Assembly: GCA_012800215.1 (NCBI GenBank)
Contig: JAAZJT010000148.1
Location: 1-33,610 of the forward strand
Reading direction: 5' to 3'
Length of the DNA: 33,610 nt
Source: Bacillota bacterium
GTDB lineage: Bacteria > Bacillota > Dethiobacteria > Dethiobacterales > Dethiobacteraceae
Position 1 is the stretch's first letter. Each line of letters opens with the position of its first letter. The position numbers and the translations under genes are program-made. The notes beneath the pieces are model-generated. The model did no database searches. It was not told where the DNA came from and saw nothing but the letters and a program-made list of their open reading frames with translations. Below are positions 11,602 to 29,888 of the stretch, piece after piece.

Positions 11602-11703
11602 CTCTTATCAAGAGTGGTGGAGGGACTGGCCCGATGAAACCCGGCAACCGGGCAAATAGCCACGGTGCTAATTCCAACAGGTGCGATGCCTGGTAGATAA
11701 GAG
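11602..11703 (+). promoter_or_regulatory. SAM-I (S-box) riboswitch upstream of metK
   Basis: P1 CTCTTATC (11602-11609) pairs with GATAAGAG (11696-11703). Core AGAGTGGTGGAGGGACTGGCCCGATGAAACCCGGCAACC...GGTGCTAATTCC. Confidence 0.97.
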
Positions 11704-17245: not shown

Positions 17246-17782
17246 ATGAAACTGCTTGTGCGCGGTAGAAACATTGAGGTCACTGATGCGCTCAAAAACT
17301 ATGCGGAAAAGAAGCTAAGCAGAATTGACAAGTATTTTACTTTTGATGCAGAGGCTCAAGTGACTATGACCGTGGAGCGCGGCATCCATAAGGTAGAGGT
17401 TACTGCCGGTATAAACGGGATGATCTTACGGGCGGAAGAAGCAACGGAGGATATGTATGCATCAATTGATCAGGTAGTAGATAAACTTGAACGACAGCTG
17501 CGGAAATACAAAACAAGAATTAATCGCAAAGCACGTCAAAATGGCGGGTTAAAAATTAAAAACGACAATTTTGAGGAAAATAATGAGGAAGAGGATACTT
17601 TAGAAGTAGTTAAAAATAAAAGATTTCTAATAAAACCAATGGATGTTGAAGAAGCTATCTTACAAATGAATTTACTGGGCCACGACTTCTATGTTTTTGT
17701 TAATAGCGAACTCGCTGAAGTTAATGTGGTTTATCGCCGCAAAGACGGTAAGTATGGCTTGATTGAACCTACACTGGAGTAA
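17246..17782 (+). CDS. hpf: Ribosome hibernation promoting factor (long form)
   Basis: 'LLVRGRNIEVTDALKNYAEKKLSRIDKYF' and C-terminal domain 'RFLIKPMDVEEAILQMNLLGHDFYVFVNSELAEVNVVYRRKDGKYGLIEP'. Confidence 0.95.
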   Translation: MKLLVRGRNIEVTDALKNYAEKKLSRIDKYFTFDAEAQVTMTVERGIHKVEVTAGINGMILRAEEATEDMYASIDQVVDKLERQLRKYKTRINRKARQNGGLKIKNDNFEENNEEEDTLEVVKNKRFLIKPMDVEEAILQMNLLGHDFYVFVNSELAEVNVVYRRKDGKYGLIEPTLE

Positions 17783-17798
17783 ATAGTAAAGCCAAATT

Positions 17799-17829
17799 AA
17801 TAAGCCGGCGTCAGCCGGCTTATTTTTCG
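17799..17829 (+). terminator. Intrinsic terminator after hpf
   Basis: AATAAGCCGGC-gtca-GCCGGCTTATT followed by TTT. Confidence 0.9.
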
Positions 17830-17837
17830 TTTGGCGT

Positions 17838-17914
17838 GTGCCAGGGGACGGTTCCTTGTCACACCTAAAAGACTGAGATGCGAGGGAGCGTGCCAGGAAA
17901 CCGTCCCCTGGCAC
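17838..17914. repeat. REP/BIME-like inverted repeat pair
   Basis: Arm 1 GTGCCAGGGGACGGTTCCTTGTCAC (17838-17862). Arm 2 GTGCCAGGAAACCGTCCCCTGGCAC (17890-17914). Perfect 16-bp inverted match between 17838-17853 and 17899-17914; arm 2 is itself a hairpin with GTGCCAGG/CCTGGCAC. Confidence 0.8.
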
Positions 17915-18010
17915 GTGATATGTAGCAAGGAAAAAAACTGTTTGCGCTGAAATAACAGCTGCGGTGTAAAGAATTTTGCTGTATGATAGAAATAAAGGTG
18001 GGGATAAAAA

Positions 18011-19111
18011 ATGGATGTAGTGATTTTTGAAGGTAATGAAACTAAAAGCCCTGTGGAAGAAATGCTGCTTGCTGTCCGGCATGCTGCACTGCGGGACAAC
18101 CTTGACAAACTAATAATGGTGCCGGAAATTAAGCGTATTATTCTTGCTACCAACAGAGAAGAGTTTCGTTCTTTTTCAGTACTGCCAAAGCTAATTGTGG
18201 AGGTTAATTCTATTCCTCCGTCAGATTTTCATTTTGGCAGTCAGCTGAGATCTTTAATTGAACGCTATCAAATTAAGACTGTACTTTGCATGGGTGGTGC
18301 TGCTGTTCCCTTAATGAAAGTAGAAGAGCTGCGTACACTTGTTCAGCAAGCGCTGGCAAAAGAAGGACGCTTTATTACCAATAATGTTCAGTCTGCTGAT
18401 ATTATTGCTTTTAATCCTGCAAATGTGCTGCACAATTTTGCAGTCCCGTCCACTGATAATGCCCTCGCACTACTCTTGCGCTATGATGTTAAATTTGAGC
18501 AGATTCTATTACCGGTAACTTTAGGCTCACAATTTGATATTGATACCCCTACTGATTTATTAATTTTAGCTGCTTCTCCTTTTGGCGGCAAACATTTGCG
18601 CCGAACATTGGACAACTTGGCGCTAGACACAGGAAATATTGAGCGGGTAAAAAATGTACTACGGGGAGCGTATAACGATCTGGCGCTAATTGGGAGGATT
18701 GGTGCGCCTGCTATTGAGAGACTGAATAAACATTTAAAAGTAAGGTTGCGTGTTTTTTCAGAGGAGCGGGGTATGAAGGCTTTAGGTCGCCTTGAGCGCA
18801 ATGAAGTTGTATCTTTGCTTGGTTTTTGGCTGGATCAAATTGGCCCTGACCGCTTTTTTGCCTACCTGGCACAGACTGTAAAGGCTGCACTGATTGACAC
18901 CAGGGTTCTTTTTGCACATCGTAAGATTTCACCTACGGATGCAGATCGTTTTTATTCAGACTTAGGGTTATATGAAAAAGTTGAAGATCCCTTTGTGCGT
19001 GATTTTACAAGGGCTGCCAAAGAATGTTCTATTCCAGTGGTTTTAGGAGGGCATTCTCTGGTTGCAGGCGGGGTTTTGGCTTTTATTGAGGAACTTTGCT
19101 GTCAAAAATAG
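18011..19111 (+). CDS. Conserved hypothetical protein, possible degenerate nucleotidyltransferase (GT-A-like) N-terminus
   Basis: 366-aa ORF with sensible upstream region. 'FDIDTPTDLLIL' resembles the D-x-D-T-P-x-D-L motif seen in MobA/CofC-like NTP transferases. Family not recognised with confidence. Confidence 0.6.
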   Translation: MDVVIFEGNETKSPVEEMLLAVRHAALRDNLDKLIMVPEIKRIILATNREEFRSFSVLPKLIVEVNSIPPSDFHFGSQLRSLIERYQIKTVLCMGGAAVPLMKVEELRTLVQQALAKEGRFITNNVQSADIIAFNPANVLHNFAVPSTDNALALLLRYDVKFEQILLPVTLGSQFDIDTPTDLLILAASPFGGKHLRRTLDNLALDTGNIERVKNVLRGAYNDLALIGRIGAPAIERLNKHLKVRLRVFSEERGMKALGRLERNEVVSLLGFWLDQIGPDRFFAYLAQTVKAALIDTRVLFAHRKISPTDADRFYSDLGLYEKVEDPFVRDFTRAAKECSIPVVLGGHSLVAGGVLAFIEELCCQK

Positions 19112-19198
19112 ACCTTTTCCTTTCTAAAGGAAGGATTTTAATGTGCTAGGTCGAAATAGGATAGGATCTATTGCAATATTTGGAATATTATTGAGCTC

Positions 19199-19873
19199 TT
19201 GGAAGAGCCTGTGAAAAGCAAAGGGGTGAATTTCTTGGCCGAAACACAAAAAGAAATTAACTTAATACAATGTGAAAAAATGATTAAGCAGATTCGTGAT
19301 GTTCTTTCTGTCAATATTGTATTAAGTGAGCAAAAAAAAATAGAAGAAATACATGTATTGGCTGAAGACACCCGTAATGCAAAGCAAATAGTGCGTGATA
19401 TTGAAACGCTTCTGCGGGTAGAATATGGCATTGATTTGGATCATAAAAAAATATCAGTGGTGCAGCTGCAGAAGGAACAACTAACAACAGGTAAAAGACT
19501 TAAATTCACAGGTATGAGCTATTCATTAAAAAAGAATCAACTGGAAGTTACGGTGGAATTAACCGGTGGCAATCGTACCTGCCAGGGGCATAGTTCCGGC
19601 ATAAATACTAAAAGGAATAGTTTACGTTTATTTGCAAAAGCCTCCATTGAGGCAATTAACCAGTTTTTAGAGCCTCATAATTTAATTACACTGGAAGATG
19701 TTGCTCAATTTACTCTCGGGAATCAAGATGTTATTTCAACAACGCTTATATTTTGCCGGGGGCTCTCTGAAGAGATACTTGTGGGGAGTGCTTTGGTGCG
19801 GCAAGACGACAAAGATGCTGTAGTACGGGCCACTTTGGCTGCAGTTAACAGAAGGGTACCAATGGAAATTTGA
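19199..19873 (+). CDS. Conserved hypothetical protein
   Basis: 224-aa open frame; possible TTG starts at 19199 or 19235, the latter after AAAGGGGTGA. No recognised domain. Confidence 0.65.
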   Translation: MEEPVKSKGVNFLAETQKEINLIQCEKMIKQIRDVLSVNIVLSEQKKIEEIHVLAEDTRNAKQIVRDIETLLRVEYGIDLDHKKISVVQLQKEQLTTGKRLKFTGMSYSLKKNQLEVTVELTGGNRTCQGHSSGINTKRNSLRLFAKASIEAINQFLEPHNLITLEDVAQFTLGNQDVISTTLIFCRGLSEEILVGSALVRQDDKDAVVRATLAAVNRRVPMEI

Positions 19874-19977
19874 CATTAACTTTGTAATAAAAGGACCGAC
19901 ACTTCCCCAAGCGGAGCGGTTTGCCTGCCGTCTGATAGCGGATCACGGTGGAGATGACCGTAAAGGGGGACAAAGAA

Positions 19978-20055
19978 ATGGCAAAAGTTTTACGTGCTCT
20001 GGTAGCTTTGACAGCGCTCGTGCTTGCTGGTGGTGCTGCATACAAATGGGTATAA
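19978..20055 (+). CDS. Candidate 25-aa hydrophobic micropeptide
   Basis: ATG preceded by AAAGGGGGA with suitable spacing; MAKVLRALVALTALVLAGGAAYKWV, one transmembrane-length hydrophobic stretch. Confidence 0.5.
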   Translation: MAKVLRALVALTALVLAGGAAYKWV

Positions 20056-20058
20056 AAT

Positions 20059-20077
20059 AGGACTGTCGGTCCTTTTT
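20059..20077 (+). terminator. Short terminator-like hairpin after mini-ORF
   Basis: AGGAC-TGTCG-GTCCT followed by TTTT. Its 3' half is also the distal arm of the long-range inverted repeat. Confidence 0.45.
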
Positions 20078-20097
20078 CTACATCAGGAGGAATCATA

Positions 20098-21345
20098 GTG
20101 TCATTCCAAAAAGAACCAGTAGCTAGTAAAATATATATTTTTCTAATAACTGCTGTGGCAATTGTATTTTTAAGATTTCACTCTCCTGATCAGCTAATGT
20201 TTTCCCAGGCTTATCTTTTTTTCATTTTATTACATATTTTTGTTGACCAATTAGATGTTCTGCTTCCTAAGGGTAGCAGTGCTGTTTCAGTCAGTTTTGC
20301 CGTTGACTTGGCATTAATTATTCTCTTTGGGCCAACAGCAGCAGCTTATGCCAGTTTGAGCACTTTGTTTAATATCCGGACTTTCAGGCATTTTCACCAG
20401 TCTTGGTATAAGATGCTGTTTAATGCTTCCCAGATGGCTTTAGCCACTGGGTTGGCGGGGCATACTTATATATTATCCGGCGGGCAAATTGGACAGGTTA
20501 ATCTGCCTTCAGATTTGCTGCCCATTATTGCCAGTACCCTTGTCTTCTTTTTCTTGAATACAACGATGGTTATGCTGGCTGTTTCCTTTTCTGAAAAAGT
20601 TTCTTTTATTGCTGTTTGGCTTACAAGCTTTAAATGGTCTGTGCCCAATTATTTATCTAACTGTCCCTTGGGTGTATTGATTGCAGCTGTTTATTTAAGT
20701 ATGGGCATTCCCGGCGTACTGCTGCTAATTTTGCCTTTAATGGTGGCGCGCCGCAGCTTTATCATGTATATGGATATGCGCAATCAGTACATCAGTACAA
20801 TTAAGGCTTTAACAAAAGCAATTGATGCCAAAGACCATTATACTCACGGGCATTCAGAACGTGTTGCCAGGTATGCGGTGCAAATTGCTGAAGAAATGGA
20901 TTTGCCGGCCGACTATATTGAAAATCTGGAATATTTAGCTTTAATGCATGATGTGGGCAAAATAGGAGTCCCGGAGCAGCTTCTCAATAAACCCGGCAGC
21001 CTGTCGAAAGAAGAATTTAAGCTAGTTAGAAATCATGCCGCCATTGGGGCTGAGATTATCAGCACTATCAAGTTTATTGGCGAACATGCCAATATTGTCA
21101 GGCATCATCATGAGCGTGTTGATGGCGGCGGCTACCCTGATGGTTTAAGAGGTGAAGAGATACCATTAGGTGCCAAAATTGTAGGGGTAGCAGATGCCTT
21201 TGACGCCATGACTTCTGAAAGGGTCTATCGCTCACCGTTGACAAGAGAGGAAGCAATAGACGAACTAAAGCGGTGCAGCGGCACTCAGTTTGACCCTAAA
21301 GTGGTACAAGCTTTTTTAAAAGTGCTGAAGCGTAGGGGGAATTAG
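20098..21345 (+). CDS. Membrane-anchored HD-GYP domain protein (putative c-di-GMP phosphodiesterase)
   Basis: N-terminal multi-TM region, then 'HTHGHSERVARYAVQIAEEM'-type and 'LMHDVGKIGVPEQLLNKPGSLSKEEF', 'HHHERVDGGGYPDGLRGEEIPLGAKIVGVADAFDAMTSERVYR'. GTG start. Confidence 0.93.
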   Translation: MSFQKEPVASKIYIFLITAVAIVFLRFHSPDQLMFSQAYLFFILLHIFVDQLDVLLPKGSSAVSVSFAVDLALIILFGPTAAAYASLSTLFNIRTFRHFHQSWYKMLFNASQMALATGLAGHTYILSGGQIGQVNLPSDLLPIIASTLVFFFLNTTMVMLAVSFSEKVSFIAVWLTSFKWSVPNYLSNCPLGVLIAAVYLSMGIPGVLLLILPLMVARRSFIMYMDMRNQYISTIKALTKAIDAKDHYTHGHSERVARYAVQIAEEMDLPADYIENLEYLALMHDVGKIGVPEQLLNKPGSLSKEEFKLVRNHAAIGAEIISTIKFIGEHANIVRHHHERVDGGGYPDGLRGEEIPLGAKIVGVADAFDAMTSERVYRSPLTREEAIDELKRCSGTQFDPKVVQAFLKVLKRRGN

Positions 21346-21885
21346 ATGATTCCAGTCAGTATTATTCTGGCTGTGCTGATCGGCAAATTGCGTGGTGGCA
21401 GTCTGGCCAGATTACAAAACTTAGACATAAAGGCACTGCCTTTAATTTTGACCGCATTACTATTACGAGTGGCAGTAGGCAAATTGGCTGATTATGGTCT
21501 ATTGCTGCCTTGGCTGCAGGTGCTGGCATACTTAATCTTTTTCTATGCCCTGGTTTTAAATTATAAAATACCGGGATTAAAAATGTTTGCTTGCGGCTGC
21601 TTTTTGAATTTCCTGGCTATAATTGCCAATGGCGGTACCATGCCTGTTTCTGCCGCTGCCATTGCTTATTCCGGCGTTAATTATGGCGACCCCACCGGTG
21701 GGATGCATAGTTTACTTACTGATGAGACACGGCTTAGCTTTTTGGCAGATATTATTCCTTTAAGACCGCCTTATTTTCCGCTTGCCCAAGTTGTGAGCGT
21801 CGGTGATATTTTAATTATAGTTGGCATTTTCTATTTTATACAGCGTCAGATGCTCAACAAGGGAGACTTGCTTGTACTGGATTAG
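21346..21885 (+). CDS. DUF5317 family membrane protein
   Basis: 179 aa, multi-TM, 'NFLAIIANGGTMPVSAAAIAYSG'. ATG abuts the HD-GYP stop codon. Confidence 0.75.
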   Translation: MIPVSIILAVLIGKLRGGSLARLQNLDIKALPLILTALLLRVAVGKLADYGLLLPWLQVLAYLIFFYALVLNYKIPGLKMFACGCFLNFLAIIANGGTMPVSAAAIAYSGVNYGDPTGGMHSLLTDETRLSFLADIIPLRPPYFPLAQVVSVGDILIIVGIFYFIQRQMLNKGDLLVLD

Positions 21886-21916
21886 AATTAATGATAAAAT
21901 AAATTTGGCTTCTGTG

Positions 21917-21946
21917 AAGGAACCGTAAGGTTCCTTTGTTGTCTTT
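21917..21946 (+). terminator. Terminator-like hairpin before secA
   Basis: AAGGAACC-gtaa-GGTTCCTT followed by TGTTGTCTTTT. Confidence 0.7.
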
Positions 21947-21975
21947 TAGATAATGCTTGTAATGGAGGGTTTGCA

Positions 21976-24828
21976 ATGCGCCGTTTACTGGCGAAACTTA
22001 TTGGTGATGTAAACCAAAGGGAAATAAAAAAAATAAAACCCCTTGTTGATAAGATTAATAGTTTAAATAACAAAATGCAGTCACTAACTGATGCCGAGCT
22101 ACGTGCCAAAACGGATGAATTAAAAGCACGCCTGCAGGAAGAATTGTCCCAGCCGCGCGCATTGGTCGAAGAAGTTAAAGCAAAACTGCCGGCAGCAGAG
22201 AGTGGATCGGCACGGCAGGAACTTCTTGATGCAGAAAAGCAATTATTCCTGGCTGAGCAGGAGGCATTATGGAAAATCCTGCCGGAGGCTTTTGCAGTAG
22301 TGAGAGAGGCAAGTTGGCGTGTGCTTAGAATGCGCCATTTTGATGTGCAGCTGCTGGGCGGTATAGTATTGCACCAGGGCAGAATTGCCGAAATGAAAAC
22401 CGGGGAAGGGAAAACACTTGTTGCCACACTGCCTGCTTATTTAAATGCCCTGGCAGGACGTGGTGTGCATATAGTTACGGTTAATGATTATTTAGCTACC
22501 CGTGACAGTGAATGGATGGGACCTGTCTATGAATTTTTAGGCTTATCAGTAGGCTTAATTGTTCATGGACTAACACCTTCCGAGCGCCGTGCAGCTTATG
22601 TTGCCGATATTACTTACGGTACTAATAACGAATTTGGTTTTGATTACTTGCGTGATAATATGGTGCGATATCAGGAAGATCTCGTGCAGCGTCCGCTTTA
22701 TTATGCCATTGTAGACGAAGTGGATAGTATTCTTATTGATGAGGCCAGAACACCTTTAATTATTTCCGGGCAAATGAAGGGTGATGAACAGCAGCATGCT
22801 GATTATATCCGTATTGATGCTGCTGTAAGACGGTTAAAGGAAGAAAAACATTATACCATTGATGAAAAGGCCAAAACTGCCTTACTGACAGAAGATGGCG
22901 AATATGAAATTGAGAAGCTACTGGGAGAAAAGGGCCTGTATGGAGCAGAAGAAATAACAGAAGAAGAGATGCAAAATGAACTGGAATCTGACATGCAGGA
23001 AATTCAAAGAAAAAACATTATCAAGAAGAAAATAGAAAACGCTTTGCGGGCTCATTATTTAATGAAGCGTGACCGTGACTATGTGGTTAAAGATGGCCAA
23101 ATTATTATTGTAGATGAATTTACAGGCCGCTTAATGTACGGCCGCCGCTACAGTGAGGGACTGCACCAGGCTATTGAGGCCAAGGAAAATGTAAAAGTTG
23201 CCAAGGAAAGTATGACACTGGCGTCCATTACCTTTCAAAATTATTTTCGTATGTATAATAAGTTGGCAGGTATGACCGGTACGGCAGCAACTGAAGAAAC
23301 AGAGTTTCAGAATATTTATGGTATGGATGTAGTGGTTATCCCCACTAATAAGCCAATGATTCGGGAAGACTTGCCCGATGTTATTTATAAAACAATGCGT
23401 GGTAAATTCCGTTGGGTCGTGGAAGAAATTGTGCGGCGCCATCAGACAGGCCAACCACTCTTAGTGGGGACTATTTCCATTGAAATATCAGAGGCCTTAA
23501 GCCAGCTCTTAAAAAAACGTGGCATTAAGCATGAAGTGTTAAATGCCAAACACCATGAAAGGGAAGCTAAGATTATTGCTCAAGCAGGACGCTTAGGCGC
23601 TGTTACCATTGCTACCAATATGGCCGGTAGGGGAACAGACATTTTATTGGGTGGTAATCCGGAAGTACTGGCTAAGGAGGAGTTTATAGCCACTTATGGC
23701 TGTGAACCGGAGCAATATTTTGCAAAAAATGAAGTGCCGGCTGCGGAGAAGGAAAACGCCCGTAATATTTATAACCAGCTGCTAGAAAAGCACTATGAAC
23801 AAACGGAGCGGGAACGCAAGCAAGTAATCGCCGTTGGTGGTTTGCATATATTGGGTACAGAGCGCCATGAAGCGCGGCGTATTGATAATCAGCTGCGCGG
23901 GCGTGCCGGGCGGCAGGGGGACCCTGGTTCCAGTCAATTTTATATTTCCTTGGAAGATGATTTAATGCGCCTCTTCGGCGGGGAAAATATTTATAATATT
24001 ATGGAGAAACTCGGCCTCGATGAAGACACTCCCATTGATCATCCGCTTATCAGCCGTGCCATTGAATCAGCCCAGAAGAAAGTGGAAAACCGAAACTTTG
24101 AAACGCGCAAGCACATATTAGAATACGACAATGTAATTAATGAACAGCGTGAAGTGATTTACAGCCAGCGCCGCCGTGTATTGGAAGGAGAAAACCTGCG
24201 TGAAACTGTTTTGGAGTGGGCGCAGGAAATGATTGCAGAGGCATTAGAGCAATATGTGCCGGAAAAAACCAGTGAAAATGAATGGGATTTGCGTGGACTT
24301 TTGAAGTGGGCAGAAAGTACTTTTTTAGCGCCGCGAAGTCTGACTGAGCAGGAACTGCAAAACAAGAGCAGAGAGGAAATTTATTCGCTGTTGTCGGATG
24401 CAGCACAAACAGCTTATCGTACGCGTGAAGCGAGAATTGGTGAAGATAATATGCGCGAAGTGGAGCGGGCTGTCATTTTACGTGCTGTAGATGCCAAATG
24501 GATGGTGCATATAGACGCGATGGATATGCTGCGCCATGAAATTGGCCTGCGGGCTTATGGGCAGCGCGATCCGCTGATAGAGTATAAGTTTGAAGCGAAG
24601 AATATGTTTGATCAGATGATTAGCGAGATTCAGGAAGAATCTGTAGAAATGCTGTTTAGGGTGCAGTTTGTTGCTCCTCCGGAGCGTCAGGCAGTGGCAG
24701 TAACCAATGAAACGCCTCCCAGCCAAGGGACTGCAGTACATGGTCCGGCCCGCTCAACTAAGGTTGGACGTAATGACCCTTGCCCTTGTGGCAGTGGTAA
24801 AAAATATAAAAAATGTTGTGGGAAGTAG
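21976..24828 (+). CDS. secA: Preprotein translocase subunit SecA
   Basis: '[20 protein letters not shown]', '[27 protein letters not shown]', '[17 protein letters not shown]', C-terminal SEC-C '[14 protein letters not shown]'. Confidence 0.98.
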
Positions 24829-24836
24829 GTGTTAGT

Positions 24837-25947
24837 GTGTCTATTGATCTTAAAAATGAGTATCAAAAGCTATCCCGGCGCCTGGCAGAAATGAGTGTTT
24901 CCCTTTGACATCGATAATAAAAATAAACGCTGTCAACAATTAGAGGCAGAAGTTAGTAAAGCTGATTTTTGGCAGGATACAGAAAAAGCACAAAAGACAA
25001 TCCAAGAATTAAATACCCTGCGAGATGAACTTACTCCCCTCATACAGGTGCGTCAGCAGTTAGAGGATTTAGAGGTTACTTTACAGCTGGCAGAAGAGGC
25101 TCAAGATGGGGAGTTATGGGCAGAAGCAGAAAAAAGCATTCTCCAACTGCATGAGGCAGTGGCCAAACTGGAGCTGGCTGTTTTATTTCGTGGTCCCTAT
25201 GATCAGCGAGATGCCATTATTGCTATTCACCCGGGAGCGGGAGGTACGGAATCACAGGATTGGGCATCAATGCTGTTACGTATGTATACGCGCTGGGCAG
25301 AACGGAAAAATTACCAGGTAGAGGTATTGGATCTATTACCTGGTGATGAAGCGGGAATTAAAAGTGCTACAATTTTAATTAAAGGGAAAAATGCTTACGG
25401 ATATTTGAAAGCAGAGCGCGGTGTACACCGATTGGTACGTATTTCCCCCTTTGATGCAGCTAGAAGGCGCCATACTTCTTTTGCTTCTCTTGATGTTTTG
25501 CCAGAAATAGGAGATGCAGATAATGAGATTGAAATCCGTCCGGAAGATTTAAAGATCGACACTTATCGTGCCAGTGGTGCCGGTGGACAACATGTTAATA
25601 CAACGGATTCAGCAGTGAGAATAACTCATTTGCCAACCGGTTTTATCGTGCAATGTCAAAATGAGCGTTCTCAGCATGCTAATCGCGACCGGGCGATGAA
25701 AATATTGCGGGCGCGCTTAGCTGACCTATATGAAAGGCAAAGATTGGAGGAAATAAGCAGTTTGCGGGGAGAACAAAAAGATATTGCCTGGGGCAGTCAA
25801 ATTCGCTCCTATGTTTTCCATCCTTATACTTTGGTAAAAGATCATCGCACCGGACTAGAGATTGGCAATATTAATGCCGTTATGGATGGCGAAATTGATC
25901 CTCTCATGGAGTTATACTTAAGAAAAACAGCCGGGAATGACAAGTAA
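24837..25947 (+). CDS. prfB: Peptide chain release factor 2, expressed through a +1 programmed frameshift at CTT TGA C (24903-24909)
   Basis: Zero-frame ORF GTG 24837 encodes VSIDLKNEYQKLSRRLAEMSVSL then TGA 24906-24908. The +1 frame continues DIDNKNKRCQQLEAEVSKADFWQD... and has 'GAGGQHVNTTDSAVRITHLPTG'. The track ORF starting at 24895 misses the N-terminus. Confidence 0.93.
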
Positions 25948-29784: not shown

Positions 29785-29844
29785 ACTGTAGTTATTTGAA
29801 TTGGCTTGATACTACACAATAAACTTTAAAAATACAGATAAAAA

Positions 29845-29888
29845 AACAAGCTCTGGTTAATAATAGCTGCCATGAGCTTGTTTTTTTT
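29845..29888 (+). terminator. Intrinsic terminator after M23 peptidase gene
   Basis: AACAAGCTC...GAGCTTGTT followed by a T-tract. Confidence 0.85.

Follow-up and report, generated by a model that had tools for sequence, protein, structure and literature searches.

A widespread structured RNA enclosing a conserved micropeptide frame upstream of MASE9-HD-GYP genes: a candidate control or partner element

Small membrane subunits of the KdpF/CydX type are 25–30 amino acids long, have a basic N-terminus and one hydrophobic helix with a small-residue motif, and are encoded beside the gene of a membrane protein. Short conserved ORFs also occur in structured leaders upstream of a main gene, as in the ilvB-II (ilvBNC) uORF of Corynebacterium (PMC10272879), which is enriched in regulatory Ile, Leu, and Val codons, has terminator and antiterminator stems, and is confined to one genus (PMC10272879; uORF candidates in PMC11109978). 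In Thioalkalivibrio, the ykoW motif is a candidate RNA that precedes a gene whose EAL-domain product is linked to c-di-GMP hydrolysis; its eleven examples come from one genus and form a three-stem junction, with no micropeptide described (PMC11109978).

The window, by which we mean the whole 33,610-nucleotide stretch of DNA analyzed, belongs to a 1.8-Mb draft assembly whose nearest named relative among the genomes compared is a Dethiobacter MAG (L061). A first-pass annotation made from the letters alone had proposed that positions 19889–20077 hold an undescribed structured element with an enclosed micropeptide upstream of an HD-GYP gene. The inverted repeat of 13 bp, micro-ORF, and TCCCC/GGGGA complementarity that it described are all present at the positions given, and this proposal was borne out by covariation, peptide conservation, recurrence upstream of HD-GYP genes, and absence from Rfam. 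The features of the locus, in window coordinates, are as follows.

19199..19873, + strand: up224, a hypothetical 224-aa gene directly 5′ of the element and co-conserved with it; no Pfam match above cut-off
19889..19901, + strand: P1 5′ arm AAAAGGACCGACA, from the repeat search and the test of cognate against permuted arms in 40 families
19905..19908, + strand: P2 5′ strand CCCC, complementary to the micro-ORF Shine-Dalgarno (pair counts, 88.6% of cells paired)
19910..19919, + strand: core motif AGCGGAGCGG, from column counts in 43 homologues
19916–19920, + strand: P3 5′ strand, comprising the 3′ part of the core motif plus 19920
19925..19931, + strand: P4 5′ strand (compensatory changes in six of seven P4 pairs)
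19936..19942, + strand: UAGCGGA motif in the apical loop of P4; AGCGG is invariant in 42 of 42 aligned homologues
19945..19951, + strand: P4 3′ strand, then an invariant AG (pair and column counts)
19957..19961, + strand: P3 3′ strand ACCGU, partner of 19916–19920 (95.7% of cells paired)
19965..19969, + strand: putative micro-ORF Shine-Dalgarno GGGGG, also the P2 3′ strand; nearly all homologues are G-rich there
19978..20055, + strand: 25-aa micropeptide ORF MAKVLRALVALTALVLAGGAAYKWV, with 66 homologous ORFs and a profile match
20064..20076, + strand: P1 3′ arm TGTCGGTCCTTTT, with a U-tract to 20077
20085..20090, + strand: putative HD-GYP gene Shine-Dalgarno AGGAGG, 8 nt 3′ of P1, read from the sequence
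20098..21345, + strand: MASE9-HD-GYP c-di-GMP phosphodiesterase gene (415 aa), the invariable gene downstream of the element (Pfam HD_5 E = 8e-39, MASE9 E = 3e-12)
21346..21885, + strand: DUF5317 gene, the conserved next gene (Pfam PF17248 E = 1.6e-33)

At this locus, a short gap of 16 nt separates the up224 stop codon from P1, and a search for a promoter between the two found none. The perfect 13-bp repeat (19889–19901/20064–20076) extends in the repeat search to 19 nt at 89%. With 0.28 such seeds expected per 33.6 kb by a first-order Markov model of the window, the inverted repeat by itself is only mildly unusual. Judged by its homologues, this repeat is the closing stem, P1, of a widespread element. 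In an alignment-free test, we compared the best helix between the sequence 5′ of the core and that 3′ of the micro-ORF stop with the best helices of mismatched partners, using one representative per family from 40 families and permuting the 3′ regions. Scores of the cognate arms summed to 1169, compared to 735 ± 23 for the permuted arms, and 0 of 20,000 permutations scored as high; a smaller 14-family version of the test was run beforehand. Across the 40 families, each P1 arm finds its complement only at its own locus, and the letters of the arms differ wholly from family to family (GGACCGAC/GTCGGTCC, AAGCCGGCAG/CTGCCGGCTT, GGGGGGGC/GCCCCCCC, GGTTACTGTGGCCGG/CCGGTCACAGTAACC). The third of these pairs is the G-run/C-run stem that serves as P1 in family f25 (L148, L149, L151, L153, L165).

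P1 is 8–22 bp long in nearly all families and brackets exactly the core and the ORF, with a median of 12 nt between the micro-ORF stop and the 3′ arm (3–22 nt in 34 of 40 families). The arm test did not convincingly find P1 in a few groups (f44, f12, f56); inspection suggests shifted or overlapping arms in some of them. A U-tract follows P1 in 11 of 41 groups, the window's family included; thus, long-range termination by P1 cannot be its general role. In the groups that have the tract, the window's family among them, P1 may act as a long-range terminator. The first-pass annotation had also drawn a local terminator from the 3′ arm (AGGAC-TGTCG-GTCCT), and with it two mutually exclusive folds. 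This hairpin is essentially confined to the window's genome (−4.3 kcal/mol, versus 0 to −3.0 kcal/mol in the other 12 family members), and the alternative folds are not conserved.

The predicted minimum-energy structure of 19880–20085 includes P1, P2, P3, and P4 (−69.4 kcal/mol) and is somewhat more stable than those of shuffled sequences (z = −2.26). Immediately of note for the core, which lies 5′ of the micro-ORF, are its invariant AGCGRAGCG and loop UAGCGGA motifs: within 19910–19919, the letters A, C, G, R, and A are invariant or nearly so in 43 homologues, and the conserved unpaired letters are AGCGRA before P3, CC before P4, UAGCGGA in the P4 loop, and GAG after P4. Compensatory changes were observed in five of the seven P4 pairs on 15 close sequences and in six of the seven on 43 sequences from many families, which, together with the locus-specific pairing of P1, supplies the covariation on which the first-pass annotation had made its proposal depend. 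On the 43 sequences, the whole structure had 87 double-change cells compared to 21.5 in shuffles, and was 93.7% paired compared to 42–47% for slid structures; this alignment was fitted to the model and so leans towards it, and the unfitted 15-sequence alignment shows the same. Among these covariation tests, only that of P1 allowed for phylogeny, by taking a single representative of each family.

The individual helices differ in their support. P3 was paired in 95.7% of cells, which is weak evidence of covariation because its letters are mostly invariant. P2, the TCCCC/GGGGA pairing of the first-pass annotation and a potential cover for the micro-ORF Shine-Dalgarno, was paired in 88.6% of cells of the 43-sequence alignment; this pairing thus stands as a moderately supported helix, the weakest of the structure. 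The Shine-Dalgarno itself is G-rich in nearly all homologues and lies a few nucleotides 5′ of the start codon. A proposed hairpin, ACGGT-N7-ACCGT, is present in the sequence, but just 2 of the 19 sequences tested, the window's included, can form it in full; it is not conserved because ACGG belongs to P4 and ACCGU to P3. A search of Rfam 15, which contains the c-di-GMP-I and -II riboswitches, gave no match at 19860–20110 at the gathering threshold or at E ≤ 10, in agreement with the earlier suspicion that the RNA belongs to no known family, and no Rfam family matches any of 14 homologous loci. Elsewhere in the 33-kb window, Rfam identifies two SAM (S-box) riboswitches, at 1–98 and 11602–11703. 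We also considered CsrA or TRAP sites as the source of the AGCGG repeats and dropped them: in the second copy, GAA often stands in place of GGA, and the repeats are far too few for TRAP.

Conservation of the peptide, another point that the first-pass annotation had left to be checked, is evident in the 66 homologous micro-ORFs tabulated. They start with ATG (51), GTG (12), or TTG (3) and mostly have 24–26 codons; within families, pN/pS is 0.06–0.60, and most variation falls at third codon positions. Like uORFs of structured leaders, these frames combine a conserved start, stop, and Shine-Dalgarno with coding-type substitutions upstream of one main ORF. The peptide profile consists of a basic N-terminus, a hydrophobic stretch of 12–15 residues, AGGA (or AGA, AAG, SSA), and then x-[FYW]-[KR]-W, with a tail of 4–8 residues after the small-residue motif and a total length of 19–31 aa across homologues. 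Residues 2–8 are net positive in 80 of 81 peptides, and acidic residues are absent from 77 of 81; by composition, this is the single hydrophobic helix with a positive N-terminus that characterizes a small membrane subunit. Trp is often the last residue; it is not universal (f44, f55, L046). The f25 peptides are short (about 19–20 aa), have charges within the hydrophobic stretch, and end in tails such as NYKW or VWKW.

The micropeptide has no match among Pfam or NCBIfam models. None of the 66 peptides has a codon run for a regulated amino acid, one or two Trp being frequent, and we rejected an amino-acid attenuator leader peptide on this ground. In most peptides, the GGA/AGA/SSA pattern is compatible with a signal peptidase I site and, equally, with a packed AGGA helix. 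By its sequence, the peptide could thus be a signal peptide whose cleavage would leave a tail of 4–6 residues, or a single membrane helix in which the small residues serve for packing. Both peptide and P1 persist in families with an eroded AGCGG core (f12, f71), which favors a peptide with a function of its own. The peptide is conserved more widely than the RNA core and so is unlikely to be just a leader ORF.

In most genomes of the window's family, the 241-bp region has a match at the corresponding position (E = 1e-33 to 6e-10), and matches to its core extend to other classes and families; the gene immediately 3′ is the HD-GYP orthologue. R1, a covariance model of the core from 15 sequences, matched 17 of 250 phylum genomes, and a broader model (R2) matched 50 of 399, with one copy in each genome; an HD-GYP orthologue lies downstream of every RNA match with enough flank (E of 1e-63 or better). 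With a single copy per genome, always at the same gene, we rejected a mobile element. R2 also found the core upstream of HD-GYP genes in Actinomycetes MAGs (L067, L071, L085) and a Clostridiaceae MAG (L065), and P1, AGCGG motifs, or the peptide are recognizable by eye at Eisenbacteria and Oleimmundimicrobium loci (L064, L068, L063). Neither core nor peptide was found at Streptomyces HD-GYP relatives by regular expression or R2. Overall, about 40 families have the element ahead of MASE9-HD-GYP genes; most are Bacillota, with some Actinomycetota and other MAGs. Many of the compared sequences are MAGs, and the spread outside Bacillota rests on few MAG contigs. The homologues looked for upstream of HD-GYP genes on the strength of the first-pass annotation therefore exist in these same 40 or so families, and such recurrence makes chance a poor explanation; very likely this is a genuine control or partner element that has not been described.

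Linkage was surveyed in 250 phylum genomes, with thresholds of E ≤ 1e-75 for the HD-GYP orthologue and E ≤ 1e-3 for the peptide profile. The orthologue was present in 65 genomes, the peptide in 66 (E = 1.7e-9 in the window's genome), and both in 60 (Fisher p = 1.6e-44), with the peptide 28–299 nt upstream of the HD-GYP gene in the 59 measurable cases. Five genomes apparently without the peptide have short or divergent micro-ORFs on inspection (f25, f91, f113), after which the micro-ORF is found in 65 of the 65 genomes with an HD-GYP orthologue. Among 67 peptide matches, none is a clearly unlinked copy. Eight are not directly paired: they lie at contig ends, have HD-GYP genes that are below the cut-off, more divergent, or split between contigs (G141, G224, G115), or, in one genome, have an undetected HD-GYP gene of which only the membrane N-terminal part was recognized (G276); one is probably a chance match in a long frame (G201:C72). 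At the G276 locus (L259; G276:C1:1046900-1049000), the membrane N-terminal part follows the peptide, and no HD-GYP domain was detected in the stretch fetched; the gene 3′ of the peptide is perhaps truncated or diverged. Second HD-GYP paralogues (L196, L225, L226, L227), in tandem or about 26 kb away, have neither RNA nor peptide. The exclusive linkage to one HD-GYP gene is a direct observation, as are the pairing of the RNA and the conservation of the peptide.

The neighboring genes are conserved with the element. By tblastn, up224 and the HD-GYP gene were each found in 75 of 77 loci, and each of the 12 long regions examined shows up224–element–MASE9-HD-GYP–DUF5317 in this order. This block usually sits inside hpf ... 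secA–prfB (window 17246–25947), with secA two genes beyond the HD-GYP gene in many loci; secA was not found nearby in L269, L270, L274, and L275. The conserved order of the hpf-up224-element-HD-GYP-DUF5317-(secA-prfB) operon suggests a link of c-di-GMP, ribosome hibernation, and protein export. In its translation, the window's HD-GYP protein retains the HD and HHE...GYP residues characteristic of an active phosphodiesterase. The AlphaFold model of up224 (pLDDT 89.5) has two beta-beta-beta-alpha repeats, and 8 of 28 up224 members show weak LeuA_dimer similarity (up to E = 1.4e-4). A fold match in the PDB (E = 4e-5) pointed to a tandem dsRNA-binding domain, but its TM-scores, below 0.3, are too weak to retain that assignment. 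Conceivably, up224 binds the RNA of the element.

Two further repeats lie in the window. After hpf, an inverted repeat with 16-bp arms (GTGCCAGGGGACGGTT...AACCGTCCCCTGGCAC, 17838–17914) recurs in the genome as at least ten more partial copies and looks like a REP/MITE-type repeat. At 29840–29887, a 14-nt inverted repeat (AAAAAAACAAGCTC...GAGCTTGTTTTTTT) is flanked by A and T runs and is terminator-like on both strands.

Our preferred reading, to which we give a probability of roughly one half, is that the RNA gates translation of a membrane micropeptide that is made with the membrane HD-GYP enzyme and is its small partner. We infer that 19889–20077 would form a two-part operon element, a structured RNA together with a translated 25-aa micropeptide. 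P1 would close the RNA, and the P2/P3/P4 core, carrying the AGCGG motifs and the micro-ORF Shine-Dalgarno, would set how frequently the micro-ORF is translated by masking or exposing that Shine-Dalgarno. By delimiting the unit and ending just 5′ of the HD-GYP start site, P1 would couple expression of peptide and enzyme. The peptide, with its layout of an N-in membrane helix or a signal peptide, would insert in the membrane and there contact the MASE9 membrane domain of the adjacent c-di-GMP phosphodiesterase as a small partner or regulator. Several observations count against the partnership: for a subunit acting in trans, a fixed place in cis within an RNA stem would be unnecessary, and yet no unlinked copy was found; P2, the presumed mask of the Shine-Dalgarno, is the weakest helix; the second HD-GYP paralogues do without the peptide; and the f25 peptides are short and carry charges in the hydrophobic stretch. 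More tentatively, the element may represent an undescribed, phylum-crossing class of riboregulators in which a structured RNA physically surrounds and gates a micropeptide; the micropeptide would insert in the membrane, possibly be released by signal peptidase, and control the adjacent membrane c-di-GMP phosphodiesterase. If so, membrane or secretion state would be linked to the c-di-GMP level.

Because a ribosome at the micro-ORF stop codon would often cover the P1 3′ arm, which begins a median of 12 nt beyond it, the main rival is a leader-peptide switch acting in cis. Translation of, or stalling on, the signal-peptide-like micro-ORF would decide whether the 3′ arm can pair; the sensed input would be membrane insertion, secretion, or tryptophan supply, and P1 would block HD-GYP expression by termination or by occlusion of the ribosome-binding site. 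The strict cis linkage of peptide to HD-GYP, the frequent final Trp, the U-tract in 11 of 41 groups including the window's, and an operon that often runs on to secA, as in secretion-monitor systems, are all consistent with such a switch. Most groups lack the U-tract, however, several families lack secA nearby, Trp is not universal, and no regulatory codon run is present. The tail after AGGA varies between 4 and 8 residues, which argues against a stall at a fixed distance, and the conserved hydrophobic body exceeds the needs of a stall site. We regard this switch as a serious but doubtful alternative to the gated partner peptide.

The remaining explanations account for less of the data. Second-messenger riboswitches usually control several gene families. 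An AGCGG core acting as an aptamer for a small molecule, such as c-di-GMP or another nucleotide, and controlling both micro-ORF and HD-GYP gene would explain the invariant unpaired nucleotides of the P4 loop and junction, the leader position at a second-messenger enzyme gene, and the Shine-Dalgarno within the core; we consider this new riboswitch class unlikely, as the element serves a single downstream gene family, has no Rfam match at E ≤ 10 here or in the 14 homologous loci, and has lost its core in some families while P1 and peptide remain. A generic c-di-GMP riboswitch is likewise argued against by the single gene association and the Rfam result. The resemblance to a riboswitch or attenuator noted in the first pass stays unproven, with no ligand-class match, no regulatory codon run, and a U-tract in a minority of groups (11 of 41). 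Slightly less probable than the new riboswitch class is a processed mini-mRNA, in which P1 would be a double-strand cleavage site or an end-protecting clamp that frees the micro-ORF as a stable small mRNA: this would suit a stem of 8–22 bp that brackets exactly core and ORF in nearly all families and begins 16 nt after the upstream stop codon in the window, but would leave the core motifs and the Shine-Dalgarno pairing unexplained. An ordinary intergenic terminator beside a chance ORF could be entertained for the window's genome, where the stem has a U-tract and the repeat alone is only mildly improbable, but conservation of P1, P4, and peptide in about 40 families, in single copy and at the same gene, refutes it and leaves it a negligible probability.

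Searches of Rfam, Pfam, NCBIfam, and the literature indicate that a structured RNA and micropeptide so widespread and so strictly tied to one c-di-GMP enzyme appear to have gone unlisted. In the literature searched, which left most subscription papers and supplementary tables outside its reach, we found no HD-GYP-associated RNA of such a kind and no paper naming MASE9 or DUF5317. The element offers a testable handle on the control of MASE9-HD-GYP phosphodiesterases, and it illustrates that very short conserved ORFs can hide in RNA folds that annotation pipelines skip.

Compared to described systems, the element combines familiar parts in a different arrangement. Like the arrest peptides SecM, VemP, and MifM (PMC10951299, PMC11470409), it has a hydrophobic, signal-like upstream peptide whose end adjoins an RNA stem before the downstream start, and secA is often further down its operon; its peptide is, however, much shorter (19–31 aa), with no fixed-distance arrest motif seen, and the gene directly downstream is HD-GYP in all loci rather than, as for SecM and VemP, a Sec component. 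With the c-di-GMP-I and -II riboswitches, it shares a place in the leader of a c-di-GMP turnover gene, but its motifs differ, it has a micro-ORF inside, it is associated with a single gene, and it has no Rfam match at E ≤ 10. Its peptide resembles subunits of the KdpF/CydX type in size, basic N-terminus, helix, small-residue motif, and neighboring membrane protein gene, and differs in lying always upstream, enclosed by a conserved RNA stem and with a structured translation-initiation region; its own partnership is a putative one. The ykoW motif precedes a gene for an EAL rather than an HD-GYP protein, and the element has a micropeptide inside. Like ilvB-II, finally, the element places a short conserved ORF in a structured leader RNA ahead of a main gene, but it is free of regulatory Ile, Leu, and Val codons, encodes a membrane-type peptide, surrounds the whole ORF with a long-range stem, and occurs in dozens of families.
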